From Parahoeflea alexandrii (GTDB lineage: Bacteria > Pseudomonadota > Alphaproteobacteria > Rhizobiales > Rhizobiaceae): 64,000 bases of DNA. The stretch is taken from assembly GCF_024105735.1 (NCBI RefSeq), contig NZ_JAAAML010000004.1, positions 310,001 to 374,000 of the forward strand, read 5' to 3'. The notes under the pieces were generated by a model. It saw only the letters and a program-made list of their open reading frames with translations, was not told the origin of the DNA and made no database searches. The position numbers were made by a program, and so were the translations under genes. Shown here one piece after another: positions 383-19,821 of this stretch. The first letter of the stretch is position 1; each line of letters opens with the position of its first letter.

Positions 383-2455
383 TCAGCGCAGCGCCGCTTC
401 GATGTTGCCGCCGTCCACGGTGACGACATGAGCCGTTGTCCGCTCGGACTTCGCGAGCGCCACAAATGCATCGCCGACATGATGCGCCTCGACCTCGGCC
501 TTCAGCAGGTTGCCCGCCATGTAGTCGGAAGCGGAAACGCCCCTCGCCTCGGCGCGGGACCTGATGAAATCATCAGTCAGCAGGCCGGAGCGGATCCTGT
601 CGGCATTGACGCCGTTGACCCTGACACCGGATCCACCAAGCTCCAGCGCCAGTTGCCGGACCAGGAAAAAGGTCGCGGCCTTGGGGAGCCCGTAGGCGCC
701 AAAACCCTTGCCCGGATTGACCGCCTGCTTGGAGACGTTGAACAGCATCTGCCCGCCATGGCCTTGCGCGGCGAACACACTCGCAGCAGCCTTTGCCATG
801 GCCAGGTGGGAGAAGAAATTGAGCTCGAAACTCGAGCGAAGTGTTTCGTCATCAAGGTCGAGAAGCATGCCCTGAATGGCGGCGCCGGCGTTGGAGACGA
901 GCACGTCGAGGCCGCCGAAACGCCGCACGATCTCGCTGATTGCCTGCTCGGCTGCGCCTTTCTGTGTCAGGTCCGCAACCACAGCAAGACAGTTCGAACC
1001 GATGGAGGCCGCGGCGGCCTTGCAGGCTTCCGGGTTGAAATCGATCAGGGCAATCGCAGCCCCCTCGCGGGCGAAGGCTTTCGCGGCGGCGAGACCTATA
1101 GCGCCTGCCCCGCCGGTCACCGCAACGATCTGTCCGGCGAAGGGCTTGGCCGCGGCCTTTGACAGCTTGGCCTGCTCCAGCGACCAGTATTCCATGTCGA
1201 ACAGATCATCCGGGCCGATCGGGCGAAAGCCGCCGGCTGCCTCGCCCTGGCTCATCACCTCGACGGTCTGTTCGGCGATATCTGCCGCGGCCGATGCGGC
1301 TGATGCATCCTTGCCGATGCCGGCAATGCCGACGCCCTCTATCCAGGCCACGCAGGGATGCGGCTCGAGCATGACCTTGCCGCCGCCGACGCGTTTGAAT
1401 TGCGCGTCGAACATGGCGCGGTAGGCCTCGGCAAACTCCGCCACCTTCGCCTCGATGCCTTCACGTCCCCCGGCAAGATCATCCTTGCCAAGAACCAGCA
1501 TGCGGCCCTTGGTGCGGATCACGTGATCGGGCGAGGCAACGCCGCGCTGCGCCAGATCTCCAAGATCGGTGCGGTGCAGAAATGCGTTTATTGCCTCGCC
1601 ACCCCGAACGTCCATCACCACCGGTCGTGGTGATGTATTGTGGTGCTGGCCACGCAAATTTGCGATCGCACCACGCAGCACCGGAAGGTTGGAGGCCGCC
1701 GATACGGGGTCGGCAACCTGGCGGATCTTCTTGACGGTGCAATCGAACCTGCGGCCCTGGTTCTTCGCAGCAAACCACTCCTCGACCATGTTGGTGTGCT
1801 CGATCACCTTGTCATAGCTCTCCTTCGCCGTCGCACCGAAGGTGAAATGGCCGTGCTTGAGCAGGATCAGCCCTTCGCAGTCGGGATGGGCGTCGAAGGC
1901 TTCGGCGGCCTTCTTGGCGAGGGCAAAGCCGGGCATGATGTAGGGCACGACGGCCAACCGGTCGCCAAATATCTCGCGGATCGCCGCTTCGGCGTCCGGC
2001 AGGTTTGCCAGCGCCAGGAAGGCCGTGGCATGGGTATGATCGACAAAGGTGTGCGGCAGGAAGGCGTGCAGCAGGGTCTCGACCGACGGGTTGGGCGCAG
2101 CCGAGTCAAGCAGGTTGGAGCGCTGCATGTTGACCATGTCCTCATCGGACAGGGCATCGAGCTTGCGCATCTCAAGCAATGGCTCGAGCCGGACCCCGGG
2201 CAGGCCCGCCGCCTCGAGCGTGTCGAGATCCCAACCGCTGCCCTTGACGTGCAGCACTTTCTGCATCGCGCCGAACAGGTCCCGGCGCCCGGTCTTGACC
2301 GAGGTGTTGCCCCCGCCATGCATGACAAGATCGGGATCGGCGCCTATGATGCGGGAGGAATAGACCCTGAGCGCCAGCGTGCGGTCAGCCGGATCGGCGC
2401 CCGCCGCATCGACCCGCGCCTGGGCTTCCTTGTCATTCCACCTGTTTTGCCGCAT
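383..2455 (-). CDS. Bifunctional class II aldolase / short-chain dehydrogenase (RhaD-like fusion)
   Basis: A 690-residue fusion. The N-terminal half (about 1-420) is a zinc-dependent class II aldolase: HGGGNTSVK near residue 46, VDHTHATAF near 138 and HGHFTFG near 201 supply the metal-binding histidines. The C-terminal half is an SDR with the nucleotide motif TGGAGAIG near 447 and a YGLPK active site. Rhizobial RhaD has the same layout and length and splits rhamnulose 1-phosphate to dihydroxyacetone phosphate and lactaldehyde, then oxidises the aldehyde. Here no rhaI or rhaK is present; instead mtnK and mtnA share its operator motif, so the likely substrate is 5-methylthio- or 5-deoxyribulose 1-phosphate, with the SDR acting on the released aldehyde (inference). 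Start: ATG at 2455 follows a clear GGAGA ribosome site; an upstream TTG at 2494 lies inside the operator. Confidence 0.85.
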   Translation of the reverse strand: MRQNRWNDKEAQARVDAAGADPADRTLALRVYSSRIIGADPDLVMHGGGNTSVKTGRRDLFGAMQKVLHVKGSGWDLDTLEAAGLPGVRLEPLLEMRKLDALSDEDMVNMQRSNLLDSAAPNPSVETLLHAFLPHTFVDHTHATAFLALANLPDAEAAIREIFGDRLAVVPYIMPGFALAKKAAEAFDAHPDCEGLILLKHGHFTFGATAKESYDKVIEHTNMVEEWFAAKNQGRRFDCTVKKIRQVADPVSAASNLPVLRGAIANLRGQHHNTSPRPVVMDVRGGEAINAFLHRTDLGDLAQRGVASPDHVIRTKGRMLVLGKDDLAGGREGIEAKVAEFAEAYRAMFDAQFKRVGGGKVMLEPHPCVAWIEGVGIAGIGKDASAASAAADIAEQTVEVMSQGEAAGGFRPIGPDDLFDMEYWSLEQAKLSKAAAKPFAGQIVAVTGGAGAIGLAAAKAFAREGAAIALIDFNPEACKAAAASIGSNCLAVVADLTQKGAAEQAISEIVRRFGGLDVLVSNAGAAIQGMLLDLDDETLRSSFELNFFSHLAMAKAAASVFAAQGHGGQMLFNVSKQAVNPGKGFGAYGLPKAATFFLVRQLALELGGSGVRVNGVNADRIRSGLLTDDFIRSRAEARGVSASDYMAGNLLKAEVEAHHVGDAFVALAKSERTTAHVVTVDGGNIEAALR

Positions 2456-2484
2456 TACCGTCTCCTGCCCATGTGAACGTGTCG

Positions 2485-2517
2485 CATTTGACAAAAGTCA
2501 TTCTCTGTTGTCAAATG
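2485..2517. promoter_or_regulatory. Palindromic operator with face-to-face divergent promoters (site 1 of 3)
   Basis: A perfect 10-base inverted repeat, CATTTGACAA (2485-2494) and TTGTCAAATG (2508-2517), with a 13-base centre. It lies between the aldolase start (2455, minus) and the SorC regulator start (2540, plus). Each strand carries TTGACA, a 17-base spacer and TCAAAT, so two oppositely directed promoters occupy the same palindrome. Related sequence occurs at 5984-6012 and 13051-13077. The adjacent SorC regulator is the obvious candidate binder. Confidence 0.7.
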
Positions 2518-2539
2518 TATATATTGGTGATGGATCGAA

Positions 2540-3511
2540 ATGCCTCAGAACTCAACCAGGCGCTCTACCAAACAGATCAGCGGCGAGGATATCGTCGTTG
2601 AAACCGCATGGCTTTACTATCATGACGGGCTCAACCAGAGCGAAATTGCCAACCGGCTCTTGGTCTCGCGCGCCACGGTGGTCAACTATCTGCAGGAAGC
2701 CCGCGAACGCGGTTACATCCACACCAAGCTCGCGCCCGAGGCTTTCAACACCCATCGCGCCGCGCTGGAATTGCGCGACCGGTTCGGTCTCAAGGCCGCC
2801 TATATCCTGCCCGACGGCACCGGCGGCCAGGACGATCACGCGAGCCGCATCATCCGCGGCGCTGCCGACTGGCTGCCAAGCCTGCTTGAACCGGGCGACC
2901 GGCTCGGCGTTGCCTGGGGCAAGACGATCTACGATGTCGCCGAGCGCTTGGAACAAACCACCATCGCCGACCTGACGGTGCTGCAGCTGGTCGGCTCGAT
3001 GGCCACGCCTTATGGCTTTTCCGCCGATGTCTGTTCGTCCAACGTGGCGCGCAAATTCTCCGCCAAATGCATCAACCTGCATGTGCCCGCAATCCTGAGC
3101 ACCGCTGAAATTGCCGCCACCCTCCGGGCGGAATCGCTCATCTCAAAGCAGCTCGACGCGATCAGCGACTGCAACAAGACGCTGTTCGCCGTGGGATCCT
3201 GCAAACCCGACAGCCATGTTGCGTCGAGCGGCGTCGCCACCCAGCAAGAGCTCGAAGACTATATCGCCAACGGCGCGGTCGGCGTGCTCTGCGGCCGGTT
3301 CATCGATGCCAAGGGCGACCCGGTCTCCGGCCCGCTCGATGACCGGATGATGGGGATCGAGCTCGAGGAGCTTCGGCACCGTGACATGGGAATCCTGGTC
3401 TCGGTCGGCGAAGAGCGGGTGCCGGCGGCCGTTGCCGCCATCAGGGGCGGATACGCCACCCACGTGGTCACCAACCAGAGCTGCGCCGCTGCGATGATGG
3501 AACTCGCCTGA
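2540..3511 (+). CDS. SorC-family sugar-responsive transcriptional regulator
   Basis: 323 residues. Residues about 20-65 form a helix-turn-helix (LNQSEIANRLLVSRATVVNY) and the rest is a SorC/DeoR-type sugar-phosphate-binding domain of isomerase-like fold, with the segment GDRLGVAWGKTIYDVA characteristic of the family. Such proteins bind phosphorylated sugars and control the operon that makes or uses them. It is divergent from the aldolase fusion and shares its intergenic palindrome; the same motif precedes the mtnKA/ABC and transketolase genes, which makes this the likely regulator of the whole island. The probable effector is a pathway intermediate such as the methylthioribulose or deoxyribulose phosphate (inference). 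The ribosome site is weak (GGTGA). Confidence 0.85.
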   Translation: MPQNSTRRSTKQISGEDIVVETAWLYYHDGLNQSEIANRLLVSRATVVNYLQEARERGYIHTKLAPEAFNTHRAALELRDRFGLKAAYILPDGTGGQDDHASRIIRGAADWLPSLLEPGDRLGVAWGKTIYDVAERLEQTTIADLTVLQLVGSMATPYGFSADVCSSNVARKFSAKCINLHVPAILSTAEIAATLRAESLISKQLDAISDCNKTLFAVGSCKPDSHVASSGVATQQELEDYIANGAVGVLCGRFIDAKGDPVSGPLDDRMMGIELEELRHRDMGILVSVGEERVPAAVAAIRGGYATHVVTNQSCAAAMMELA

Positions 3512-3553
3512 GACGGCGGTCGCTAGATCCAGCAAACCTCAGGCGATCCCCAA

Positions 3554-4657
3554 TCAGGCGGCGCTGCGGCGTTCGGGAAACAGACCCAGCAGTCCCTCGC
3601 GGCTGGCCTCAGTGACACCGCGCTCGGTGATCAGGCCGGTGACCAAGCGTGCCGGCGTCACGTCGAAGGCGGGATTGCCGCCGGGCGTGCCGTCCGGAGA
3701 AATCTGCACCGAGGTGACGCTGCCATCTTCCAGACGGCCAAAGACATGGGTGACCTCGCGGTCATCGCGTTCCTCGATCGGGATTTCGCGAACGCCGTCA
3801 TCCACCGTCCAGTCGATGGTGCTCGAGGGAAGCGCGACATAGAACGGCACGTTGTTGTCATGGGCGGCGAGCGCCTTGAGATAGGTGCCGATCTTGTTGC
3901 AGACATCGCCGGAGGCCGTCGTCCGGTCTGTGCCGACGATGACCATGTCGACCTGGCCATGCTGCATCAGGTGCCCGCCGGCATTGTCGACAATGAGATG
4001 ATGCGGGATGCCGTGGCTGTTCATTTCCCAGCTGGTGAGCTGGGCGCCCTGGTTGCGCGGACGGGTCTCGTCGACCCAGACATGGATCGGAATGCCTGCG
4101 GTTGCCGCGTGATACATCGGCGAGGTGGCCGTGCCCCAGTCCACCGTCGCCAGCCATCCGGCATTGCAGTGGGTGAGGATATTGACCGGCATGCCGGGTT
4201 TCTTGGTGGCGGCGATCTTCCGGACGATCTCCAGACCATGAACCCCGATCATGCGGTTGGTCTCGACATCGGCGTTGCAGATCTCTTCGGCTTTGCGGAA
4301 GGCGGCGGCCGGACGCTCGCTTTCGGGAAGAGACGAAAGAACACCGCGCATTTCATCGAGCGCCCAGCGCAGGTTGACCGCCGTCGGCCGGGTCTCGTGC
4401 AGCCGCTCCCAGGCATTGTCGAGTGCTTCATCTGAAGCGTTGCGCTGCGTCTCGATGGCGACGCCGTAGGCGGCGGTGGCGCCGATCAGCGGCGCACCGC
4501 GCACCCACATGTCCCGGATCGCGGTGGCGAATTCATCAAGCGTGTCGAGTGCGACCACCCGGAATTCGTGCGGCAGCCAGCGCTGATCGATGATCATGAC
4601 CCTGGACTTTTCTCCATCGAACCAGATCGACCGGTAATGCGTATCGCCAACCTTCAT
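3554..4657 (-). CDS. mtnA: S-methyl-5-thioribose-1-phosphate isomerase
   Basis: 367 residues, the usual MtnA length. It converts 5-methylthioribose 1-phosphate (or 5-deoxyribose 1-phosphate) to the ribulose 1-phosphate. Family hallmarks are present: [17 protein letters not shown] near 53, [19 protein letters not shown] with the catalytic cysteine at about 164, the loop [18 protein letters not shown], and [11 protein letters not shown] with the catalytic aspartate at about 244. It follows mtnK by two bases on the same strand and has a good ribosome site (AGGA). The pairing with MtnK, rather than with an MTA phosphorylase, means free methylthioribose or deoxyribose is the entry point. Confidence 0.95.
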
Positions 4658-4659
4658 TC

Positions 4660-5928
4660 CTATGCTCCCGTTTCAGCGCGCCGCGCCGCTGCCAGCACGG
4701 CATCCATGCCGGTCAGGCGGTTTCTGTTGATGACCAGGAATTGCCCCAGCTTGAGACACTTGGCCTCGCAGCGGGCCTTCAGATCCTCGTCCTCGATGGT
4801 GTCGAGTTCGGCCACATGGGCGAGGCCCAAGATACGGCGGTGCATCTCGATGCCGGCGAAGCCAACCAAATCACGGAAGATCTCGCCCAGCAGCTGCTCG
4901 GCAGCGCTCTCCGAGGCGAAATGATGTCCCTGGTCCTCGTAGAGCGCCTTCGGGTAGAGGATGCCGGTCCGTTCCGTACGCCACAGGCGCAGGAACTCCT
5001 CGCGGAACACCGACCAGGTTTCGTCAATGACCGAGAGGATCCAGTCCTGGAAATCGCGGCAGGCATCGGCGTCGGAGATATGGGCCGGCATGGCGTGGTA
5101 GGCCATCAGGTAATTGCCGATCAGCATGCCGATGTCGAAGCCGAACGGCCCGTAGAAGGCAAACTCGGGATCGATGATGCGCGACTGCTCGCCGGTGACC
5201 ATGATCGAGCCGGCATGAAGATCGCCATGGCACATGGTTTCACCGCGCGAGGTGAATGCGCGCTTCATGTGCTGAACCTCGACCTTCAGCGCCTCGTCCC
5301 GGCGCAGGTCGGCGACAATGCCGTCAAGCTGCGGTGTGGTGTGCCGGTTCATCTCAGCATCGTAATAGGGATCGGTGAAGACCAACGACTCGGTAATATC
5401 GCACAGCTCGACATTTCCGGCGAAGAGAGCCGCGTCGGCTTTCTTGTCGCCCGCCGTCATTGACAAATCCGACCCGCGAAAGGCGGTGCGCGCAGCAAAC
5501 AATCCCAAGGTCTGGCCCAACCCCGCAACCTTGCGCCCTTCCATGGTCTGCTGGCGCAAAATAATATGTGGCTGCAGGCGCTCCATGACGATGAGCGCCT
5601 GGCTTTCATCAAAATGCAGGACCTGGGGCACGCTGCCTGGATCCCGCGCCTCCTGGCGGATCAATGCATGATACTCGAAGAACGCGCGCTTGAGCGGCAG
5701 CGGCCAGCTGTCACCCACCAGGCGCACATAGGGAAGCGCCTGCTTGACGATGACACTGCCAGCGTCACCTTCCACGATGAAGACGAGATTGAGGTTGCCG
5801 TCGCCGACTTCCCGCACCGTCCAGGCATCGGCATTGCCGCCGACAGCCTGCTTCATGACGTCGAGTCCACCCAGGCGCTGGCCCAGGGTTTCCGGCGATA
5901 AAGGTTTGTAGTCGTTGCTCAAAACCAT
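4660..5928 (-). CDS. mtnK: S-methyl-5-thioribose kinase
   Basis: 422 residues of the choline-kinase-like fold. MtnK phosphorylates 5-methylthioribose (and in some bacteria 5-deoxyribose) at C1 using ATP. Visible hallmarks are [13 protein letters not shown] with the catalytic aspartate, [15 protein letters not shown] for metal binding, and [12 protein letters not shown] with the ATP-binding lysine. It is the first gene of the mtnK-mtnA operon and is divergent from the sugar ABC transporter, with operator site 2 in between. The GGGAGG ribosome site abuts the ATG at 5928 with no spacer, so an in-frame TTG at 5922 (six bases from the site) may be the true start. Confidence 0.93.
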
Positions 5929-5983
5929 CCTCCCAAATGACAGTCAAGGCTGCGTATCGTGCAAGCCTAGTGCCCATTTCAAT

Positions 5984-6012
5984 CATTTGTCAATACGTAT
6001 TGACTTTTGTCA
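5984..6012. promoter_or_regulatory. Operator site 2 of 3, between mtnK and the sugar ABC operon
   Basis: The plus strand reads CATTTGTCAA, then a short centre, then TTGACTTTTGTCA. Inside it GTCAATACGTATTGAC (5989-6004) is a perfect 16-base palindrome. Aligned with site 1 read on the minus strand, both begin CATTTGnCAA and end TGACTTTTGTCA with a one-base difference in spacing. It serves the divergent mtnK (start 5928) and ABC (start 6046) operons. Confidence 0.68.
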
Positions 6013-6045
6013 TCGCTGCTGTTTTCATCATAGCGGGAGGACAGC

Positions 6046-7578
6046 ATGAACGGAACTCTTTGCGATCTGCGGGGCGTGGACAAGTCGTTCGGGGACAACC
6101 GTGTCCTCAAGCAGCTTAACCTGTCGCTGCCCGCCGGATCGGTCACCGTGCTGATGGGCGCGAACGGCGCGGGCAAGTCCACCCTGGTCAAGATTCTGAG
6201 CGGCGTACACGCGCTCGATGCCGGCTCGATCACGCTGCTGGGCAAGGATTTCCGCCCGTCAACACCTTCAGAAGCCATCCGCGCCGGCGTCGTTACCGTG
6301 CACCAGAACATCAATGACGGGGTGATTCCTGATCTCGATGTCGCCTCCAACCTGCTGATCGACCAGCTCGCCGAGCCGGGCTACGGCTTCTTTCTCAAGC
6401 GCCGGCAGAATTATGCCGATGCCGAACGCATAGCCAGCCAGATGGGGCTTGCGCTCAATGTGCGCCAGTCGGTGGCAGAACTCGGCGTCGCCGACCGGCA
6501 GCTGATCGCCATTGCGCGGGCCATGGCGCATGATCCGCAGCTGCTCATTCTCGACGAGCCGACATCATCGCTCTCAGCCTCCGAAGCCGAACGCCTGTTC
6601 CTTCTCATCGAACGTCTTTCGGCCAAGGGCGTTGCCGTTCTCTACATTTCGCACCGGATGTCGGACATCCGCCGCATCGCCAACCGCATCGTGTCGATGC
6701 GCGACGGCGAGATTTCCGGGGTCTTCGAGGGCGAAGAGCTCGACTATGAAGGCGCGGTCAACGCCATGCTCGGCCACCGCATGACCGATGCCGACATCAG
6801 CATCGGCGCCCCCGGCAGACGGGTGCTGGAAATCACCGATCTCCGGCTGCTCTCCGGCAGCAAGCCGTTCGATTTCAACCTGAGCGAAAACGAGGTGGTT
6901 GCCGTTACCGGCCTGCTCGGCAGCGGCAAGAGCGCCTTCGCCCAGAGCCTGTTCGGACTTGGCCGCCCTGCCGGTGGACAGATCCGGATTGACGGCAAGG
7001 ATTATGCGCCGGCGAATCCCAAGGCTGCGATAGCGCGGGGTGTGTTCATGTCAGCCAAGGACCGGGCCAACAATGCCGTGGTTGCCGATTTCGACATCAC
7101 CCGCAACATCACCCTGCCCTTCCTGGCGCGCTACTCGAACCTGTCCTTCATCAAGCGCTCGGACGAGCGTAGCACCGCCAACGAGATGATCGAGGCGCTG
7201 TCGATCGTTTGCCAGGGCGAGACCGATTCGATCGGCACGCTGTCGGGCGGCAACCAGCAGAAGGTGATGCTGGCCAGGTGGCTTGCCGAGCAATGCCGGC
7301 TGCTGCTGCTCGACGAGCCTTTTCAGGGTGTCGACATTCGCGCCCGCCGCGATATCGGCCGCAAGATCCGCGAAACCGCGAAGAACCGGGCGACACTGGT
7401 GTTTGTCTCGGAACTCGACGAGGCGCTGGAAGTCGCCGACCGCATCATCGTCATGACCGAGCATTCGGTCGCGGCGGAATTCAGAAACGAGAACGTGGAT
7501 CTCAACGAGATTCTCACCGCAGTAACCGGGGCCATGCCGTCAGATGCCGGCAGCGCCGCAAGGACAGCACACGCATGA
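6046..7578 (+). CDS. Ribose-type ABC transporter, double ATPase subunit (RbsA/MglA family)
   Basis: 510 residues with two ABC cassettes in tandem, the layout of carbohydrate-uptake-transporter-2 ATPases. The first cassette has a Walker A GANGAGKST and Walker B LLILDEP but, as in RbsA, a degenerate signature. The second has a non-standard Walker A (GLLGSGKSAF) and a proper signature LSGGNQQK followed by LLLLDEP. It energises import by the permease and binding protein encoded next. Start: ATG preceded by GGGAGG. Since this operon faces mtnKA across a shared operator, the imported sugar is probably 5-methylthioribose, 5-deoxyribose or similar (inference). Confidence 0.93.
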   Translation: MNGTLCDLRGVDKSFGDNRVLKQLNLSLPAGSVTVLMGANGAGKSTLVKILSGVHALDAGSITLLGKDFRPSTPSEAIRAGVVTVHQNINDGVIPDLDVASNLLIDQLAEPGYGFFLKRRQNYADAERIASQMGLALNVRQSVAELGVADRQLIAIARAMAHDPQLLILDEPTSSLSASEAERLFLLIERLSAKGVAVLYISHRMSDIRRIANRIVSMRDGEISGVFEGEELDYEGAVNAMLGHRMTDADISIGAPGRRVLEITDLRLLSGSKPFDFNLSENEVVAVTGLLGSGKSAFAQSLFGLGRPAGGQIRIDGKDYAPANPKAAIARGVFMSAKDRANNAVVADFDITRNITLPFLARYSNLSFIKRSDERSTANEMIEALSIVCQGETDSIGTLSGGNQQKVMLARWLAEQCRLLLLDEPFQGVDIRARRDIGRKIRETAKNRATLVFVSELDEALEVADRIIVMTEHSVAAEFRNENVDLNEILTAVTGAMPSDAGSAARTAHA

Positions 7579-8642
7579 GCATGAACCAGACCGAGACCTC
7601 AAGCGCGGGTTCGCGCGCGCCAAAACCGCAGCCCGGCTCCGGCGGGCTGATCGACATCGCCATCCGTTACGGCTTCCTGGCGCTTCTGGTCGGCCTGGTG
7701 ATCTTCTTTTCGGTCTTCGCCAACGGTTTCGCCGGACCGCGCAGCGCGGTGTTCATCTTCCAGTCGGTGGCGATCACCGGCATCCTGGCGCTCGGCGTCA
7801 CCTGCACGCTGGTGGTCGGCGGCTTCGACCTGTCGATCGGCTCAGTCGCCACCTCATCAATGATGCTGGCGGCCTACATGATGGTGGTGCTCGAACAGCC
7901 AGCCTTTGTCGCCATCATCGCCTGCCTGGCGATGGGTGCCTTCATTGGCCTGATCAACGGCCTGCTGATCGTCAAGACCAAGGTTCCGGATCTGCTGGCG
8001 ACGCTCGGCATGATGTTCCTGCTGGTCGGCCTGCAGCGCATTCCGACCGAAGGCCGCTCGATTGCCATGGGTATGACACTGCCCGACGGCTCGACAGCGG
8101 AAGGCACGTTCTCGCCGCTGTTCCTGCAGCTTGGACGTCACCGGTTCGATTTTATGCTGGAAAACCTTTTGCCGGCTCCGGTGATATTCCTGGTGGTCAT
8201 CGGCATCCTGGTCTGGGTGTTCCTCGAGCTCACCCGGCACGGCCGGCTGATGTATGCCATCGGATCGAACGAGCGGGCGGCGAGCCTGACGGGCACCAAT
8301 GTCAACAACTACAAGATCCTTGCCTACATGATCTCGGGCGTTCTGGCATCGATCGGCGGCATGCTGCTTGCAGCCCGTCTCGGGCGTGGCGACATCGCCT
8401 CGGGCACCAATCTGCTGCTCGATGCGGTTGCCGCAGCCCTGATCGGCTTTGCGGTGCTGGGTGCTGCCAAGCCCAATGCCTTCGGCACCGCCATGGGCGC
8501 GCTGTTTGTGGGCATCCTGCTGCAGGGCCTGACGATGATGAACGCGCCCTACTACACGCAGGATTTCATCAAGGGCCTGGTGCTGGTCATCGCCCTTGTC
8601 TTCACCTTCTCGCTTTCGGCCCGGAAGGCCGGCGGCCACTAA
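7575..8642 (+). CDS. Ribose-type ABC transporter permease (RbsC family)
   Basis: 355 residues with about nine to ten hydrophobic segments and the family's conserved loops: GGFDLSIGSVATSS, LNGLLIVKTKVPDLLATLG-like region and AIGSNERAASLTGTN followed by ISGVLASIGGML. It forms the membrane channel, presumably as a dimer. Its ATG at 7575 overlaps the stop of the ATPase gene (ATGA), indicating translational coupling. The N-terminal 25 residues are polar and low in complexity, as is common in this family. Confidence 0.92.
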   Translation: MSMNQTETSSAGSRAPKPQPGSGGLIDIAIRYGFLALLVGLVIFFSVFANGFAGPRSAVFIFQSVAITGILALGVTCTLVVGGFDLSIGSVATSSMMLAAYMMVVLEQPAFVAIIACLAMGAFIGLINGLLIVKTKVPDLLATLGMMFLLVGLQRIPTEGRSIAMGMTLPDGSTAEGTFSPLFLQLGRHRFDFMLENLLPAPVIFLVVIGILVWVFLELTRHGRLMYAIGSNERAASLTGTNVNNYKILAYMISGVLASIGGMLLAARLGRGDIASGTNLLLDAVAAALIGFAVLGAAKPNAFGTAMGALFVGILLQGLTMMNAPYYTQDFIKGLVLVIALVFTFSLSARKAGGH

Positions 8643-8674
8643 GCAAGACCAATCATTTAACGGAGGAAAACAGC

Positions 8675-9730
8675 ATGAAAATCATACGCAGAAAAGCCCT
8701 GGCCCTCTTTGCGGGCCTCGCCGCTGCAGCCGTCACCCTGCCCGCGAGCCTTGCAACGGCTGCAGACATGCCGGCGCCGCTCGACAACCCCGGCGATGTG
8801 AAGATCGCGCTGGTGCGCTATCTCTCCACCGGTGACTTCTTTCAGGCCTATCTGTCGGGCGTGGAAAAGCAGGCCGAAGCACTTGGCGTCGATCTCCGGG
8901 TCCTCGACAGCCGTCAGGACGCGGCCCTTCAGGCCGACATGGTCGACCAGGCAATTGCATTGGGCGTCGACGGGATCATCATCCAGCACGGCCTGACGGA
9001 ATCGATGAAGGAAGCCGCCCAGCGCGCGGTGGACGCCGGCATCAAGGTCGTGGCCTTCGACGTCAATGTCGAAAACGACGCGATCCCGCAGATCGAGCAG
9101 TCGGATTACCTGCTCGGCAAGCTGGCGCTGGAACAGGCGATCAAGGACAACGGCACCGAATGGAAGGCCGGCTATGTCTACGTGCCCGGCATCGCTCCGC
9201 TCGACCGCCGTCACGTCGCATGGGAAGAGGTCAAGGCCGCCAATCCGGGTATCGTGGAAGCCGCCCAGATCGGCACGCTCGACAACCCGATCGCCAACTC
9301 GAACGCCAACCAGGCACGCTCGGTGCTGCAGGCAAACCCGGACATCTCGGTGTTCTTCGCTCCCTATGACGAATTCGCCAAGGGCGTGAAGATCGCGGTG
9401 GACGAAGCCGGCATGTCGCAGGACATCAAGATCTATTCCGCCGACGTCTCGACCGCCGACATCTCGGCGATGCGCGAGCCTGACAGCGCCTGGGCGGCAA
9501 CCGTTGCGACCAACCCGGCAGTTGTCGGCGAAGTCTCGGTACGGGCTCTCGCCATCATGCTGACCGGCGGCGAACCCGGTGCCCAGGTGGTGGTGCCGCC
9601 AACCCTGATCACGCAGGACTTCCTCATCGAGAACGACATCAAGAACATGGAAGAACTCTCGGCCAAGATGCCGCAATTTGCCCATGCCGATGTCGCGATG
9701 ACCGACTGGATGCCGCTGCCGGCACGCTGA
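8675..9730 (+). CDS. Periplasmic sugar-binding protein of the ribose-type ABC transporter
   Basis: 351 residues. A classical signal peptide (MKIIRRKALALFAGLAAAAV, cleavage after ATA or AAD) precedes a periplasmic binding protein 1 domain: KIALVRYLSTGDFFQAYLSG at the start, IIIQHGLTESMKEAAQRAVD and VVAFDVNVEND in the middle, FFAPYDEFAKGVKIAVDEAG towards the end. Start chosen for its strong GGAGG ribosome site. It delivers the sugar to the permease and is the last gene of the operon, followed by a strong terminator. The ligand cannot be read from sequence alone. Confidence 0.92.
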   Translation: MKIIRRKALALFAGLAAAAVTLPASLATAADMPAPLDNPGDVKIALVRYLSTGDFFQAYLSGVEKQAEALGVDLRVLDSRQDAALQADMVDQAIALGVDGIIIQHGLTESMKEAAQRAVDAGIKVVAFDVNVENDAIPQIEQSDYLLGKLALEQAIKDNGTEWKAGYVYVPGIAPLDRRHVAWEEVKAANPGIVEAAQIGTLDNPIANSNANQARSVLQANPDISVFFAPYDEFAKGVKIAVDEAGMSQDIKIYSADVSTADISAMREPDSAWAATVATNPAVVGEVSVRALAIMLTGGEPGAQVVVPPTLITQDFLIENDIKNMEELSAKMPQFAHADVAMTDWMPLPAR

Positions 9731-9752
9731 TCCAACATCCCTCCCAGGATGG

Positions 9753-9783
9753 AAAGGCCGCATCTCCGGATGCGGCCTTTTTT
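9753..9783 (+). terminator. Rho-independent terminator of the sugar ABC operon
   Basis: A perfect 12-base-pair stem, AAAGGCCGCATC and GATGCGGCCTTT, with a TCCG loop, followed by a T run. It lies 22 bases after the binding-protein stop. Confidence 0.9.
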
Positions 9784-9878
9784 CTGCGCTCACATCGCTT
9801 CTTCAAGCCCTCGCCAAACCACACAGGTCAGCGGCTTTCGGCAAGGCCAAAGCCATTTCAGCAGGCTCTCCTTGCGGC

Positions 9879-9911
9879 AAAAAAATGGGGCCGGTCTTTC
9901 AACCGCGCCCC
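9879..9911 (-). terminator. Rho-independent terminator of the transketolase/RuBisCO-like operon
   Basis: Read on the minus strand: GGGGC, a bulged G, CGGT, a six-base loop, ACCG, GCCCC, then A and seven T. It lies 33 bases after the stop of the RuBisCO-like gene and faces the ABC operon terminator. Confidence 0.75.
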
Positions 9912-9943
9912 ACAGTTTCCAGGACAGACCCCGGTTGTTTCAA

Positions 9944-11074
9944 TCAGGCCGCTATGCTGTCGACGGCGTCGCGCATGGCGCGCACCGCCTCCCCGATCGC
10001 CTCGCCGGCGCGCAGCAGGCTGCCGCCGAGCAGGAAGACCACGTCCTCGCCATACATCGAGACCATGTCGCCTGCGCGCTCCACGCTCATGCCGCCGCCG
10101 GGGCTCGGCATCATCGGCCGGCCGATGCCGTCGGACGCGCGGCAGGCCTCTGCAATCGACAGGCATTCCTCGACGCTGAAGCCGAAGCGGCCGCCGACAT
10201 TGGGGAACACCGAAATGTCGGATCCGGCCAGACGCTGGAACACGCCGTACATGATGGCGTGGGAAACACCGGTTTCAGGCGTCAGCACAAAGGGGCCGGT
10301 GAAACTCGGATGGGTCATGATCGGCAGATCGAAGGACGGATCGCGCGACAGCGCCTGCACCACGCCAAAGCCCATCAGGCCGGGCATCAGCAGCAGGCCA
10401 CCGGCGCCCGCCTCCCTGGCCTGGAACGCCTCGTCCACAGGCGAACCGGTGTGGCCGGTCACGTTGACGAAATAGAGCGCCGAGCCGCCGGACCTGGCGT
10501 TGGCCTCGGCCACCGCGGCGCTCACCGCCTTCACACGTTCACCGAACGGGGCCATTGTCTGGTTGGCGAGGCCATGGTCGTCCTTGATGATGTCGGCGCC
10601 GCCGAGCGTGCAACGGTAGGCGATGTCGGCGAGTTGTCTGACGCTCGAACCCTGCGGCTTGATCACCGGCGAAATCAAGCCTCCCCTTCCGCGTCCCGAT
10701 CGCGCGCGAACACCTTCGATGCCAAAGCGCGGGCCGGCAAAACGCTCGCGGATCACCCGGCCGGGCTCGAAGCCCGTCACGCGAATATTCTGCTGGATCG
10801 AGGAATTGCCGAAGATCACGTTGATCAGCTGGATGATCTCGTCGCCGGCGCTGTCGGGACTGTAGGAGATCTCCGCCTCATAGGTATTGCCGCCAAGATG
10901 CCTGACGCTTTCAATCTGGCCGACGATCTCGTCGCTTATGTAGCCCTTAGGCACGATGTCGCCAGGGATCTCGACCGTCTGCTCGAGCGCGATGCCAAGC
11001 GCCCGCTGGTCGGCATCCTGCGGATTGTCCGCCAGAAGCCGGTAGCGGACGCGGAAACGGCTGTCGTCCGCCAT
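9944..11074 (-). CDS. RuBisCO-like protein (form IV), probable sugar-phosphate isomerase/enolase
   Basis: 376 residues of RuBisCO large-subunit fold, without carboxylase activity by residue comparison. The lysine of the KPKxG motif is kept (IKPQG, K139) but the second lysine is Q. The metal/carbamate site reads GGADIIKDDHGL (K164, D166), with histidine where RuBisCO has glutamate. The catalytic histidine remains (MTHPS, H255) but the loop-6 lysine is absent. The phosphate-binding glycines are kept (SPGGGM; LLGGSL). Form IV proteins act in methionine salvage as enolases or as 1,3-isomerases of 5-methylthioribulose 1-phosphate, and others act on apiose-derived acids. It follows the split transketolase by two bases, in the same regulon as mtnKA. 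I infer isomerisation of MtnA's product to a 5-phosphate, the kind of substrate a transketolase could use. Confidence 0.88.
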   Translation of the reverse strand: MADDSRFRVRYRLLADNPQDADQRALGIALEQTVEIPGDIVPKGYISDEIVGQIESVRHLGGNTYEAEISYSPDSAGDEIIQLINVIFGNSSIQQNIRVTGFEPGRVIRERFAGPRFGIEGVRARSGRGRGGLISPVIKPQGSSVRQLADIAYRCTLGGADIIKDDHGLANQTMAPFGERVKAVSAAVAEANARSGGSALYFVNVTGHTGSPVDEAFQAREAGAGGLLLMPGLMGFGVVQALSRDPSFDLPIMTHPSFTGPFVLTPETGVSHAIMYGVFQRLAGSDISVFPNVGGRFGFSVEECLSIAEACRASDGIGRPMMPSPGGGMSVERAGDMVSMYGEDVVFLLGGSLLRAGEAIGEAVRAMRDAVDSIAA

Positions 11075-11076
11075 CC

Positions 11077-12081
11077 CTACAGCGCCTCCGCCTTGACGGC
11101 GGAATGAACCGCGTCGACCCGGGCGCTAGCAAGCGCTTCCTCGTCGATGCCGGTCGAGGCGCCGATGATGCGCTCGATGCCGCGCACCAGCGCACCGGCA
11201 TCAAGCCCGTAATGCTTCATCAGGTAGGGCTTCGAGCCGCCATGGGCATAGGTGTCGTTGAGACCAAGCCGCACCAGCGGCTTGCCGACGCCGTTGTCGG
11301 CCATGATCTCGGCAACCAGAGAGCCGACTCCGCCGGTGATGACGTGGTTTTCGAGCACCACGACGCCCTTGGAGACCGAGCCGATATGATCGAGCAGCGC
11401 CTGCTCGTTGAACGGCTTGATGGTGTGGATGTGCAGATGCCGGATCGAGACACCGGCCCTGGACAGCGCGTCGCGGGCACGGAGTGCTTCTTCCGTGGCA
11501 ATGCCGGAGGTGACCACCAGAACATCGGCGCCCAAGGAAAGTTCGCGCATTTCGCCGACCTTGATCGGGCTGTCGAACAGGCGCGGAACCGAGCCGCGCA
11601 GGACGCGGCAATAGACCGGACCGTCGATGGAATCGGCTGCCTCGCAGATGCTCTCGACCTCGGTGGCGTCGCCGGTTTCGAGGATCGACATGTTTGGGAT
11701 CGACCGCATCACGGCAACATCCTCGATCGCCTGGTGGGTCATGCCGCCGGGCGTGGTTATGCCGGGCAGGAAGCCCATCAGGCGCACCTTGCGGCGCGGA
11801 TAGGCGACCGAGGCCATGAGCTGGTCGTAGGGCCTGCGGTAGAGGAAGACGCCAAAGGAATGCAGGAACGGGCGGTAGCCAGCAAGGCCTAGCCCTCCGG
11901 CAAAGCTCATCATGTTCTGCTCGGCCATGCCCAGCGACAGGAACTGGCCCGGGTGGCGGTCGCGGAAGCCGTCGATCTCGCAGGACGAAGTCAGGTCGGC
12001 GGACAGGCACAGCACATCGGGATGCTTGACGGCGTAGGCCTCGAAGGCCGACGCATAGGGGCGATTGACCATCTCAACCAT
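11077..12081 (-). CDS. Transketolase-like protein, C-terminal half (pyrimidine-binding and C-terminal domains)
   Basis: 334 residues corresponding to the second half of transketolase. The thiamine-activating glutamate is present (LSLGMAEQNM, E54), followed by the typical GLGLAGYRPFLHSFGVFLYRR region and a C-terminal transketolase domain. It would form an alpha2beta2 enzyme with the gene product of 12081-13025, whose stop codon overlaps this start by one base. Split transketolases are used in apiose and other unusual sugar pathways and are usually not the housekeeping enzyme. Position between the N-half and the RuBisCO-like gene suggests it cleaves a ketose 5-phosphate made by that protein (inference). 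Confidence 0.88.
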   Translation of the reverse strand: MVEMVNRPYASAFEAYAVKHPDVLCLSADLTSSCEIDGFRDRHPGQFLSLGMAEQNMMSFAGGLGLAGYRPFLHSFGVFLYRRPYDQLMASVAYPRRKVRLMGFLPGITTPGGMTHQAIEDVAVMRSIPNMSILETGDATEVESICEAADSIDGPVYCRVLRGSVPRLFDSPIKVGEMRELSLGADVLVVTSGIATEEALRARDALSRAGVSIRHLHIHTIKPFNEQALLDHIGSVSKGVVVLENHVITGGVGSLVAEIMADNGVGKPLVRLGLNDTYAHGGSKPYLMKHYGLDAGALVRGIERIIGASTGIDEEALASARVDAVHSAVKAEAL

Positions 12082-13025
12082 CAGTGCGTCTCCAGTTCAA
12101 TCGGGTCGATACCAAGCTCGGCGGCGATGGAAGCATTCATTTCGGCGCGCTCCTCCTCGGACTTGAACCGCACATAATGCAGCCGCGGGAAGCGTTTCTG
12201 CAGGAAGCTCATGCCCTGTGTGGGCGAGGAGCGGGCCAGGATGATCAGCGGCTGGCCTTCGTGCGGCTCGTTCCTGGCCTGGCGCATGGCGTCGAGATCA
12301 TGCGCATCGATCTCGACACAGACGGCACCAAAGGCGCGGAACTTGGCGGCGATGTCGCGGACTTCCATCACCGAATCCATGGCGCCGTCGCACTGCTGGT
12401 CGTTGACGTCCATCAGCGCCCAGAGATTGTCGATGCCGTGGTGGGCGGCTGCCTGCACCGCTTCCCAGGTCTGGCCCTCCTGGACCTCGCCATCGGACAT
12501 GAAGACGCAGACCCCACCGCTTTCGCCGCGCCGCTTGCGGCCAAAGGCCAGGCCCGCGCCGGTCGACAGGCCGATGCCGAGGGTTCCGTTGTGGACCTCC
12601 ATGCCGGGCGAATGCTCGGCGCCGATCATCTCGACCGACGAGCCGTCCTTGTTGAACATCTCAAGCCCTTCGGCATCCATCCGGCCGGTCTCGATCAAAG
12701 TCGCATAGGCCACCAGCGCGTAATGCGCGGGCGCAATGAACAGCCGGTCATACTGTGGCTCGAACGGGCCATTGTAGCCGGCGCCGGTGACATAATCCGG
12801 ATTGTCGGCGGAGGGGACGCCGGCGAAAGGTCTGGGCACTGCCGGCAACACCGGCTCGCCCAGATTCAGGGCCTCGTTATAGAGGAACGCCAGTTGCTCG
12901 GCTGCCGAACAGGCCTGGCTGAGATAGCCGCCATTGTTACGCATCGAATGTTCGAACACCCGTCTGCGGATTCCCATGGCTATGTCTTCGGTCGAACGTT
13001 TGTTGCGCACATCTGCCTCCCTCAT
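12081..13025 (-). CDS. Transketolase-like protein, N-terminal half (thiamine diphosphate-binding domain)
   Basis: 314 residues. The thiamine diphosphate/magnesium motif is SDGEVQEG with a downstream VND (D178 and N208), a GDG motif whose first glycine is serine. The conserved GMEVHNGTLG segment is present near 141, but the early GHPG-type segment of transketolase reads GGYLSQ (32-37), so the donor-site histidine there is replaced by tyrosine. The next conserved histidine may be H101 (PAHYAL). These changes near the sugar site suggest an unusual donor sugar. First gene of the transketolase/RuBisCO-like operon, with operator site 3 starting 26 bases upstream. Confidence 0.87.
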   Translation of the reverse strand: MREADVRNKRSTEDIAMGIRRRVFEHSMRNNGGYLSQACSAAEQLAFLYNEALNLGEPVLPAVPRPFAGVPSADNPDYVTGAGYNGPFEPQYDRLFIAPAHYALVAYATLIETGRMDAEGLEMFNKDGSSVEMIGAEHSPGMEVHNGTLGIGLSTGAGLAFGRKRRGESGGVCVFMSDGEVQEGQTWEAVQAAAHHGIDNLWALMDVNDQQCDGAMDSVMEVRDIAAKFRAFGAVCVEIDAHDLDAMRQARNEPHEGQPLIILARSSPTQGMSFLQKRFPRLHYVRFKSEEERAEMNASIAAELGIDPIELETH

Positions 13026-13050
13026 TCATGGCGACAATGTCGCGATAATA

Positions 13051-13077
13051 GACAAATGTCAACATTGATGGCAAATG
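13051..13077 (-). promoter_or_regulatory. Operator site 3 of 3, upstream of the split transketolase operon
   Basis: Read on the minus strand the site begins CATTTGCCA and ends TTGACATTTGTC, matching the CATTTGnCA ... TTGACTTTTGTC pattern of sites 1 and 2. TTGCCA, a 19-base gap and TATTAT form a possible promoter overlapping it. The plus-strand run GCAAATGTATA (13071-13081) also matches the run next to site 1 (TCAAATGTATA at 2511). Confidence 0.62.
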
Positions 13078-13173: not shown

Positions 13174-14400
13174 TCAGCCGCCGACTTCGCCGGAGATGAT
13201 GTCACCGAAGGTTTCCCAGCGCTCGCCGTTGAACTTCATCAACTGCATCTGCTCGATCGGGAAGTAGTCGGTCTCGGTCGTGTTCATCGTCATGCCGGGC
13301 AGGAACAGCGGCAGGGTGACGTCCTTCATGCTGGCAGCCTGCTTGAGCACGTTCTCGCGCGTCAGGTCATCACCCGCCTGATCAAGGATGTGCACCATGG
13401 TCTGCGCCACCGAATATCCGTAGGTGGTGAAGCTCGAGAGCTTGTCACCGTCCGGATAATACTTGTCCATGAAGGCGTTCCAGTCCTTGGCGCCCTGGTC
13501 GTCCGCCCACTGGGGATCCTGCATGTCCTTGAGATAGGCGGTGGAGATGAGACCGGTGGAAGCTTCCAGTCCGGCAGGCGTGAGAACCGCGCCCACCGAG
13601 TTGGAAACGTTGGCGACGATCTGGGTTGCATCCCAGCCAATCTCGTGGGCCTTCTTGATGCCCTGAGCGGCGAATTTCGGCGTCGCGAAACTGACAAAGA
13701 CATTGGCGCCGGAAGCCTTCAACTTGACAACCTGCGAGTCCACGACCGGCTCGGCAACTTCGTAGGAAGCTTCGGCGACGACCATGTCGGCCTTGTCACC
13801 AAGCCCGGTCTTCAGACCATTGAGCAAGTCCTTGCCGAAATCGTCGTTCTGGAACATCACGGCGATCTTCGCATCGGGCATTTCGGAAGCGATCCAGCGA
13901 CCATAGATGATGCCCTCGCTCTGGTAGTTGGGCTGCCAGCCCATCGTCCACGGGGCTTCTCCCGGATTGCCGAACTTGGTGGCTCCGGTGGCAACGAGAA
14001 GCTGCGGCACCTTCTTCATGTTCATGTACTTCTCGATCGCCGAGTTCGACGGCGTTCCGAGCGACTGGAAGATCAGCAGAACCTCGTCGCTCTCGACGAG
14101 CTTGCGTGCCTGCTCCACCGCCTTGGGCGGCGAGTAGCCATCATCATAGGACAGGAAATTGACCGTGCGTCCGTTGATGCCGCCTTCTTCATTGACCTTG
14201 TCGAAATAGGCGGAAATCGTCTTGGCGATGGTCGAGTAGGCCGAAGCCGGCCCGCTGTAGGGCGCAATGTTGCCGATCGTGATTTCCGTATCGGTCACGC
14301 CAGGCATGTCTGCCGCCTGGCTGAGTGCCGGAAGTGACAGCCCGGCGCTCAAGACAAGCCCCGCGCCCACAAATTTGAGCATGTTACGTCGTTTGTGCAT
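13174..14400 (-). CDS. livK: Branched-chain-amino-acid-type ABC transporter, periplasmic binding protein
   Basis: 408 residues, LivK/HAAT family. The twin signal region (RRNMLKFVGAGLVLSAGLSL then ALSQAAD) is followed by ITIGNIAPYSGPASAYSTIAK, the usual start of the mature domain, and by INGRTVNFLSYDDGYSPPKA. Members bind branched-chain amino acids, but also aromatic and alicyclic acids. It is the distal gene of the operon and is preceded by a strong GGAGG site. Divergent neighbours encode acyl-CoA degradation, so the ligand is more likely a hydrophobic or dicarboxylic acid than leucine (inference). Confidence 0.88.
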   Translation of the reverse strand: MHKRRNMLKFVGAGLVLSAGLSLPALSQAADMPGVTDTEITIGNIAPYSGPASAYSTIAKTISAYFDKVNEEGGINGRTVNFLSYDDGYSPPKAVEQARKLVESDEVLLIFQSLGTPSNSAIEKYMNMKKVPQLLVATGATKFGNPGEAPWTMGWQPNYQSEGIIYGRWIASEMPDAKIAVMFQNDDFGKDLLNGLKTGLGDKADMVVAEASYEVAEPVVDSQVVKLKASGANVFVSFATPKFAAQGIKKAHEIGWDATQIVANVSNSVGAVLTPAGLEASTGLISTAYLKDMQDPQWADDQGAKDWNAFMDKYYPDGDKLSSFTTYGYSVAQTMVHILDQAGDDLTRENVLKQAASMKDVTLPLFLPGMTMNTTETDYFPIEQMQLMKFNGERWETFGDIISGEVGG

Positions 14401-14423
14401 GGTTTCCTCCCTTTAAGGTTGCA

Positions 14424-15470
14424 CTACCTATTCATACTCCGCTTGGACAACGCTGTCAGCGCCGCCTTCAACAGGCCTCCCAGCCCGGTTGGTATTGCGT
14501 ACATCATGAGGATCATGATGAGGCCGTAGACGGCGCCTGACAGGCCCTTGGACAGTTCCTCGGCGATATTGGGCACGAACATGATGAAGGCCCCGCCGAA
14601 CAGCGCGCCGGGCAGCCAGCCGACGCCGCCGACCACAAGCCCAACGACAAGGGCCACGGAGAGCGTGAATGTAAATGAATCAGGCGAGATGTACTGGACA
14701 ACGATGGCGCCGAGCGCACCGGCGACACCGGTGTAAAGCGCACTGACACCGAAGGCCAGGGATTTGAAAAGCGGCGTGTTCACGCCCATCGATCCCGCCG
14801 CAATCGGATTGTCGCGGATCGCCATCAGGGCGCGACCGGTCCGGCTGCCGACAAGATTCCTGGCGCAGACATAGGCCAGCAGACCGATGGCGAAAGTCAG
14901 GAAGTAAAGCCACTGATCAGGGTTGAGGGGCAACCCGAACGGCGCGTCAGGCTTGGAGATCACGATCCCCATGACACCGCTTGTCCAGTGCTCGAAAGGC
15001 GACAGCTTGAAGAGTTGCGGGGTGACGACGGCAAGCGCAAATGTCGCCAGCGCCAGATAGACACCTTCCAGACGCAACGCAGGCAGCCCGAACAGGAAGC
15101 CGACAACGAAGCAGATGATGCCGGCCACCGGCAGGGTCCACAGGTAGCCGATACCGAACTGGTCCATCATGATGGCGGCAGTATAGGCCCCGACGGCATA
15201 GAATGCGCCATGGCCCAGCGAGAACTGGCCGTTGATGCCGGTGAGGATATTGAGCCCGAGGATCGCGATCGCGTAGATCATCATCATCGTCAGCTGGAAG
15301 ATCAGGAAGTTTCCGGACAGGAAGGGCGCGGCAATTCCGATCGCGAGCAGGATGACGCCGGCCGTCCGCATGATCTTCGCGTTGCTTGTGGCCGCGGCGG
15401 GTTGAGGCAGGCTCACACCCTGCTTGGCCGGAGCCTGGCCGTCGGCGGTGGTCGTGGTGTTTGCGGACAT
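14424..15470 (-). CDS. livM: Liv-type ABC transporter permease
   Basis: 348 residues, LivM family: about nine membrane segments, with the conserved GLNILTGINGQFSLGHGAF near residue 75 and the cytoplasmic coupling loop ALMAIRDNPIAAGSMG near 215. A 30-residue polar, proline- and glutamine-containing N-terminus precedes the first membrane helix. It sits three bases after livH and 23 bases before livK, and pairs with LivH to form the channel. Confidence 0.9.
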   Translation of the reverse strand: MSANTTTTADGQAPAKQGVSLPQPAAATSNAKIMRTAGVILLAIGIAAPFLSGNFLIFQLTMMMIYAIAILGLNILTGINGQFSLGHGAFYAVGAYTAAIMMDQFGIGYLWTLPVAGIICFVVGFLFGLPALRLEGVYLALATFALAVVTPQLFKLSPFEHWTSGVMGIVISKPDAPFGLPLNPDQWLYFLTFAIGLLAYVCARNLVGSRTGRALMAIRDNPIAAGSMGVNTPLFKSLAFGVSALYTGVAGALGAIVVQYISPDSFTFTLSVALVVGLVVGGVGWLPGALFGGAFIMFVPNIAEELSKGLSGAVYGLIMILMMYAIPTGLGGLLKAALTALSKRSMNR

Positions 15471-15473
15471 CTA

Positions 15474-16349: not shown

Positions 16350-16359
16350 CGTTTCCCCC

Positions 16360-18772: not shown

Positions 18773-18843
18773 GCAGCCGCTCCTCCCTTTGTTGACAAAC
18801 AATCCATCACATTCTAGCAGAGAGGTCAAATAATAAAATTGAA

Positions 18844-18858: not shown

Positions 18859-18879
18859 CTGGGAGGTTGTTTGCGGACG

Positions 18880-19800: not shown

Positions 19801-19821
19801 ATTCATTTCTGGGAGGAAAAC

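Follow-up and report, generated by a model that had tools for sequence, protein, structure and literature searches.

A RuBisCO-like protein and a split transketolase in a candidate salvage island for 5-methylthioribose of Parahoeflea alexandrii

Gene content and recurrence of the island

Here we describe a gene island at positions 383-13077 of a 64,000-nucleotide stretch of the Parahoeflea alexandrii genome (NCBI RefSeq assembly GCF_024105735.1, contig NZ_JAAAML010000004.1, positions 310,001 to 374,000 of the forward strand; the whole stretch is hereafter called the window), in which a RuBisCO-like protein (RLP) and the two halves of a split transketolase (TK), TktN and TktC, are encoded beside methylthioribose kinase (MtnK), methylthioribose-1-phosphate isomerase (MtnA), a sugar importer and a bifunctional aldolase (Table 1). 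The window belongs to a 4.9-Mb genome, and among named genomes it is Hoeflea that comes closest at this locus (RLP identities of 91, 89 and 87% for the best three). Protein families were assigned with Pfam and NCBIfam profiles, and the gene order is aldSDR, i.e., a class II aldolase fused to a short-chain dehydrogenase (SDR) (-), a regulator (+), mtnA and mtnK (-), the ATPase, permease and binding protein of the importer (+), and RLP-tktC-tktN (-). The promoters of these five transcription units are marked by an operator-like inverted repeat, present in three copies. The original prediction, made from the letters of the window, was of six activities encoded side by side in five transcription units with a common operator-like motif, and both the families and the three repeats were confirmed. 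Taken as a whole, the island is best explained as a substrate-induced catabolic and salvage system that would process 5-methylthioribose, and probably also 5-deoxyribose, through RLP and then TktN-TktC, beside an aldolase exit; we hold this to be probable.

Table 1. Features of the island, with positions counted from the first letter of the window
Feature	Position	Strand	Basis
aldSDR, bifunctional class II aldolase/short-chain dehydrogenase fusion	383..2494	-	NF006192, 882.6 bits vs cut-off 639; Pfam Aldolase_II + adh_short
Operator-like inverted repeat 1, between aldSDR and regulator	2488..2517	.	Repeat search
SorC/DeoR-type regulator, homologue of E. coli YjhU (MtnR)	2540..3511	+	Pfam Sugar-bind, 193.7 bits
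MtnA, methylthioribose-1-phosphate isomerase	3554..4657	-	TIGR00512, 429.6 bits vs 279
MtnK, methylthioribose kinase	4660..5928	-	TIGR01767, 485.5 bits vs 275
Operator-like inverted repeat 2, mtnK/importer intergenic	5984..6013	.	Repeat search
Ribose-type (CUT2) ABC importer ATPase	6046..7578	+	ABC_tran, two stretches; AraG/YtfR/RbsA models match below cut-off
ABC importer permease, ATGA overlap with ATPase gene	7575..8642	+	Read from sequence
Periplasmic sugar-binding protein of importer	8675..9730	+	Peripla_BP_4
RLP (RuBisCO-like protein)	9944..11074	-	Pfam RuBisCO_large, part of catalytic domain; PDB 3qfw
TktC, split transketolase C-terminal half	11077..12081	-	Transket_pyr + Transketolase_C; closest PDB 6yaj
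TktN, split transketolase N-terminal half	12081..13025	-	Transketolase_N; closest PDB 6yak
Operator-like inverted repeat 3, upstream of tktN-tktC-RLP	13049..13077	.	Repeat search

The co-occurrence of the RLP with both transketolase halves, MtnK and MtnA was borne out by a neighbourhood survey of named genomes, in which 80 loci were kept of 152 relatives, some of the loci being cut by contig ends. These loci contained tktC in 76 cases, tktN in 75, mtnA in 66 and mtnK in 63; importer genes (permease and binding protein included) were present in 63, the regulator in 61 and aldSDR in 50, these last three being counted only at an identity of at least 40%. The distance between RLP and tktC was at most 400 bp in 74 of the 80, and the gene set recurs in many records of Rhizobiales and Rhodobacterales.

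Across 297 genomes of the order, RLP was found in 29 at E <= 1e-30 (16 at an identity of at least 47%, the rest at 41% or less) and TktN in 27 at E <= 1e-40 (17 with an identity of at least 66% and 10 with one of no more than 42%). Twelve of the more distant RLPs make up a sister set linked to a cupin, and that of genome G205 falls with MtnW in the tree, both of which are considered below. When the higher identity classes are combined, RLP and TK occur together in 16 genomes, TK alone in one (G273), RLP alone in none and neither in 280, giving a Fisher p of about 1e-25 that is uncorrected for kinship and uses an identity cut set after seeing the gap. When 398 genomes of the phylum were drawn separately, six yielded TktC at E <= 1e-90, all in the same class as the window; among the five besides the window the RLP is adjacent in four, and G866 has the second gene setting of the TK that is described below.

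A fusion of MtnA to TktN was found in two genomes of one genus (L179:7149-9119 and L194). It forms a single 656-amino-acid open reading frame (ORF) in G496 (425.5 bits to TIGR00512 for the MtnA part), followed by tktC and RLP, and in G586 the fusion was matched over residues 1-656 at 84% with no stop. Mirror-tree correlation was discarded as support for the RLP-TK pairing, since it is not specific: over 65 loci, RLP-mtnA (0.84) exceeds RLP-tktC (0.80).

The RuBisCO-like protein and the split transketolase

Among PDB chains the RLP matches 3qfw best (234.6 bits), which we take to be RLP1 of R. palustris, compared with 136.9 bits for the MtnW structure 2zvi. MtnW equivalog models gave 149.9 and 189.1 bits, below their cut-offs of 513.6 and 409. 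In the tree, in which long branches were flagged, the TK-linked RLPs are sister to, i.e., outside, the 3qfw group, and both stand apart from MtnW with a support of 99/97. R. palustris RLP1 is a 5-methylthioribulose-1-phosphate 1,3-isomerase with a cupin partner, alongside which the aldolase Ald2 provides a second exit (PMC5893883). An RLP of R. etli is reported to lie close to ribose-transport genes (PMC8914248).

The sister set (34-41% identity) has 12 loci, seven of them represented in the tree, and in 11 of the 12 the gene directly after the RLP encodes a cupin. The closest solved chain to this cupin is Rru_A2000 (3jzv, 195.2 bits), which is named a sulfurylase of 1-methylthio-xylulose 5-phosphate (PMC4958253). 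By comparison, CupA-type cupins were detected in none of 95 TK-clade loci (E <= 1e-6; several of these loci are the same genome fetched twice) and in none of 17 TK genomes, that of the window included (E <= 1e-15; 16 with RLP, plus G273). Counted over the 28 RLP genomes, a cupin is present in 0 of 16 TK-linked genomes against 11 of 12 sister genomes (p about 6e-7). On the plain reading of this swap, the product of the RLP passes to the TK.

The known system nearest to the island is the isoprenoid shunt for 5'-methylthioadenosine (MTA) in R. rubrum and R. palustris (MtnP, MtnA, DeepYkr RLP and CupA), which likewise combines MtnA with an RLP of the sister group, the expected product of both RLPs being 1-methylthio-xylulose 5-phosphate, and which in R. 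palustris also coexists with an aldolase exit (PMC5893883). The island differs in having a split TK in place of the CupA cupin, in its entry through MtnK (a nucleoside phosphorylase in some relatives) and not MtnP, and in having its own importer, regulator and operator. Its RLP being sister to cupin-linked RLPs, the island could instead encode an ordinary MTA-isoprenoid shunt, in which some other enzyme would convert the RLP product to 1-deoxyxylulose 5-phosphate and the split TK would be a pentose-phosphate helper. We consider this very improbable, given that the cupin is missing from every TK genome searched and that the TK is linked to the RLP, lies under the common operator and, in one genus, is joined to MtnA in a single protein.

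A split transketolase also acts in apiose catabolism. RLPs are reported in the same catabolism (PMC6302742), which would speak for an apionate-type pathway of an OiaX-like decarboxylase and an apulose-type split TK; action on apiose-type acids alone had been named beforehand as one outcome that would count against the original prediction. This pathway is not favoured, and we regard it as scarcely credible: an OiaX identity of the RLP was rejected on score (57.7 bits against an equivalog cut-off of 700) and on its tree position with 3qfw, and no other apionate-pathway model is among the listed matches of the island proteins.

Three further members of the RuBisCO family were recorded. The genome of the window carries a second such gene outside the window (G000 contig C1:1341644-1342567), which has a full-length PF00016 match of 467.2 bits and is apparently a true RuBisCO large subunit. 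L032 (G067:C3:195424-196500) is a fast-evolving second RLP copy which has lost the KDDH motif and adjoins a gene judged by eye to be phosphotransferase-like (L048). L028 (G203) is a divergent sister-set RLP with neither the cupin nor the TK family, adjoining a PfkB kinase that resembles one in L104.

For the split transketolase, 91 TktN and 92 TktC genes were located, of which 90 and 91 (87 distinct each) were kept on the criteria of 40% identity and a length above 250 amino acids. The residues for thiamine diphosphate (ThDP) and Mg, and those for catalysis, are kept throughout (TktN D178, N208 and H101 in 90/90; TktC E54 and H116 in 91/91). The two-gene layout, cofactor motifs and catalytic Glu are also those of the Carboxydothermus split transketolase (6yaj/6yak; PMC7661550), which keeps a His where TktN of the island has an Ile. 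In human TK, H37, H258 and H110 bond the hydroxyls at C1, C3 and C4, and TKTL1, which is without H110, has no partner for C1 (PMC6334435). Human H110 (yeast 103) aligns with TktN Ile134, and Ile stands there in all 90 rows (87 distinct), compared with Ser in 11 and Ile in one of 12 other alphaproteobacterial split TKs, the one being L161, which of these lies nearest to the TK family of the island in the tree. A hydrophobic residue on the C1 side would fit a methyl or methylthio group without proving it. In the yeast variant H103A, acceptor-free release of the two-carbon unit is favoured (PMC6334435), a behaviour that would fit plain aldehyde release by TktN-TktC. The gene surroundings of four of the control split TKs (L185-L188) gave no clue to their substrates. 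The nearest outgroup split TK, L185 (G017; tktC at 47%), has Ile at the C1 side and adjoins an amidohydrolase-like gene.

Regulation, sugar supply and the aldolase exit

The three repeat copies of the island were made into a matrix, with which 90 loci were scanned (87 distinct RLP sequences, the window and near-copies being among them). In 65 of the 90, the top-scoring site of the locus as a whole fell within the promoter window of tktN, mtnK, the regulator or aldSDR, although these promoter windows make up 3.7% of the scanned sequence, and in 25 it fell outside them; the loci, being related, do not count as independent trials. Over 318 aligned positions, the regulator shares 37% identity with E. 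coli YjhU, which has been named MtnR, the repressor of the E. coli dihydroxyacetone phosphate (DHAP) shunt, and for which CAAAT-N9-ATTTG has been pointed to as the element (PMC12632272). The predicted operators of the island bear ATTTG and CAAAT arms.

The E. coli shunt (mtnK-mtnA-ald2-transporter, with MtnR) and the island have MtnK, MtnA, a class II aldolase, a transporter and an MtnR-like regulator in common, and differ in that the aldolase of the island is fused to an SDR, its importer is of the ABC type and it has the extra RLP-TK exit. As mtnK, mtnA, an aldolase, a transporter and MtnR make up a shunt in E. coli (PMC12632272), mtnK, mtnA and aldSDR could suffice here as well, with RLP-TK as an unrelated neighbour. 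This seems very improbable to us, since the operator is common to RLP-TK, TktN is fused to MtnA in one genus, and aldSDR was found at E <= 1e-100 in 11 of the 16 RLP/TK genomes and not in the other five, in which a lone aldolase was not sought. The aldolase fusion is thus optional among these genomes; in three of the 11 (G040, G080 and G115) the identity of aldSDR is no higher than 46-47% and the gene lies well away from the island. L118, L123 and L129 have a lone FucA-like aldolase, scoring below cut-off, and mtnA adjoins a FucA-like aldolase in two other genomes of the family to which the genus with the MtnA-TktN fusion belongs. In the favoured pathway, aldSDR is likely to be a DHAP-shunt-type branch beside RLP-TK, and it is a guess of ours that the labour is divided, 5-deoxyribose going to the aldolase and methylthioribose to RLP-TK.

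With regard to the source of the sugar, the absence of MTA phosphorylase that had been claimed for the window extends to the genome, in which none of the four PF01048 members is an equivalog of that enzyme. One of them, encoded elsewhere in the genome, is a nucleosidase of MTA and S-adenosylhomocysteine (SAH) (TIGR01705, 322.1 bits vs 152.2), and therefore methylthioribose can arise inside the cell besides being imported; external sugar, as had been suggested from the importer, may be one supply of two. Purine nucleoside phosphorylase genes lie close to mtnA/RLP in L061, L063, L077 and L119, three of which (L061, L063 and L119) also have an amidohydrolase that is deaminase-like but scores below curated cut-offs. 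The loci L077 and L119 were found to lack mtnK within their bounds, and there the sugar 1-phosphate could come straight from the nucleoside phosphorylase. In 11 of the 80 loci a mutarotase-like gene is present, with a score below cut-off.

A 728-amino-acid ORF (7544-9730) that had the appearance of a fusion of permease and binding protein was rejected as a frame artefact, because the permease uses another frame, starting at the ATGA overlap with the ATPase gene; the sole family match of the ORF is the binding protein. Directly downstream of the island, at 13174-18829, lie a Liv-type (branched-chain) ABC importer and an IclR regulator, apparently a separate system, with acyl-CoA-type genes at 18871-23618.

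Proposed pathway and its significance

We infer every reaction of the pathway from gene content, linkage, the shared operator, protein families, phylogeny, the fusion and the cupin/TK swap. The sugar would be supplied by the importer or by the MTA/SAH nucleosidase, MtnK would phosphorylate C1 and MtnA would make the ribulose 1-phosphate, steps for which the basis is equivalog-level family membership. At the first exit, aldSDR would split the ribulose 1-phosphate into DHAP and an aldehyde, to be converted by its dehydrogenase part, as in a DHAP shunt. At the second, RLP would act as a 1,3-isomerase to give 1-methylthio-xylulose 5-phosphate (or 1-deoxy-xylulose 5-phosphate), as its phylogeny and the motifs shared with 3qfw suggest, and TktN-TktC would cleave this xylulose 5-phosphate between C2 and C3, leaving glyceraldehyde 3-phosphate and a two-carbon unit on ThDP, to which linkage, swap and fusion point. 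The original prediction had this sequence of a 1-substituted xylulose 5-phosphate from the RLP and its use by the split TK, and it gains from the linkage, the swap, the MtnA-TktN fusion and the MtnR-like regulator, although its account of the two-carbon product as simply a methylthio or methyl unit is not borne out.

As to the fate of the two-carbon unit, transfer to an acceptor is ranked slightly above elimination of methanethiol, and aldehyde release lower. In the case of elimination TktN-TktC would be a ThDP-dependent demethylthiolase, expelling methanethiol and forming glyceraldehyde 3-phosphate with acetate or acetyl phosphate, a proposal that we make tentatively. In a variant of this proposal, the natural substrate would be a sulfoxide or another 5-deoxy-5-substituted ribose. 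Phosphoketolase and sulfoacetaldehyde acetyltransferase use ThDP chemistry that expels a leaving group beside the ThDP-bound carbon, water in the case of phosphoketolase, and serve as an analogy solely for this one possible fate.

Several observations weigh against the methylthioribose pathway. The TK is absent from the RLP cluster in L061, L062 and L063, although it is present elsewhere in those genomes at 81-82%. L014 and the paralogue L032, both labelled 'other', were placed by the tree among the TK-linked RLPs (in the L014 genome a TK is about 20 kb away), and one of the 12 sister loci is without the cupin. The aldolase exit is present in 50 of the 80 loci, where a second exit has no obvious need. 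Nor does TktN-TktC have an obvious way of holding the C3 and C4 hydroxyls. In yeast numbering of TK contacts, the H30 position is Tyr in 88/90, the H469 position is Leu in 91/91 (Met in L161) and D477 is lost in 91/91. An argument for a new donor from the loss of four TK ligands was narrowed, as three of the four are also changed in 12/12 control split TKs, and the changes at H30, H469 and D477, being shared in kind with these controls, are not evidence.

Furthermore, the TK has a second gene setting (L173, L176, L178 and L206), in which no RLP is adjacent and its neighbours are a molybdenum S/N-oxide reductase of the BisC type and either a sugar kinase or a dehydrogenase, and in L174 and L175 it stands without any recognised partner. 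As such, the TK may have donors besides the RLP product. The set is fullest in L176, with reductase, xylulokinase-like kinase, dehydrogenase, AraD-like epimerase and regulator, and the RLP of that genome lies about 20 kb away; kinase, epimerase and reductase did not reach curated cut-offs, and the names given to the dehydrogenase of L206 and the kinase of L178 come from inspection by eye. These partners could be another road to a ketose of the D-xylulose-5-phosphate type, possibly a second pathway with this enzyme. TK and RLP together are likewise accompanied by BisC-like genes in L077, L100, L104, L108 and L114, five of the 80 loci, and an S-oxide reductase as partner would fit a thioether substrate.

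The xylulokinase-like, AraD-like and dehydrogenase genes of this setting, by which other sugars may reach the TK, together with the ribose-like importer, would speak for RLP-TK handling another pentose (5-substituted or unsubstituted, e.g., ribose, a thio-sugar or an arseno-sugar), with MtnK and MtnA being paralogues of that specificity. We judge this unlikely. MtnK and MtnA score well above the equivalog cut-offs (as paralogues could too), nucleoside phosphorylase and deaminase-like genes are among the partners, Ile replaces the C1-side histidine, and the BisC-type reductases fit a thioether.

No description of this RLP with a transketolase was found in the open-licence literature searched, which held few subscription papers and no preprints. 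In the parts available, the word 'transketolase' is absent from PMC6302742 and PMC5893883, PMC7895386 has nothing on an RLP-TK pair, PMC11356281 offers nothing of use here, and PMC8307300 contains both an RLP term and transketolase. Salvage of 5'-deoxynucleosides by way of an RLP is known, and the variant with a transketolase exit would be new.

Methylthioribose and 5-deoxyribose are by-products of S-adenosylmethionine use, and the recurrence of the gene set in Rhizobiales and Rhodobacterales bears on how these sugars are recycled and on methanethiol release. If the proposed pathway is true, the RLP product would gain one more fate in sulfur-sugar salvage and transketolase chemistry a new donor, and a role would be suggested for a RuBisCO-like clade that is without one in the literature searched. 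Should the transketolase prove to be a demethylthiolase, it would achieve the sulfur release of CupA without a reductant, feeding both methionine recycling and central carbon.

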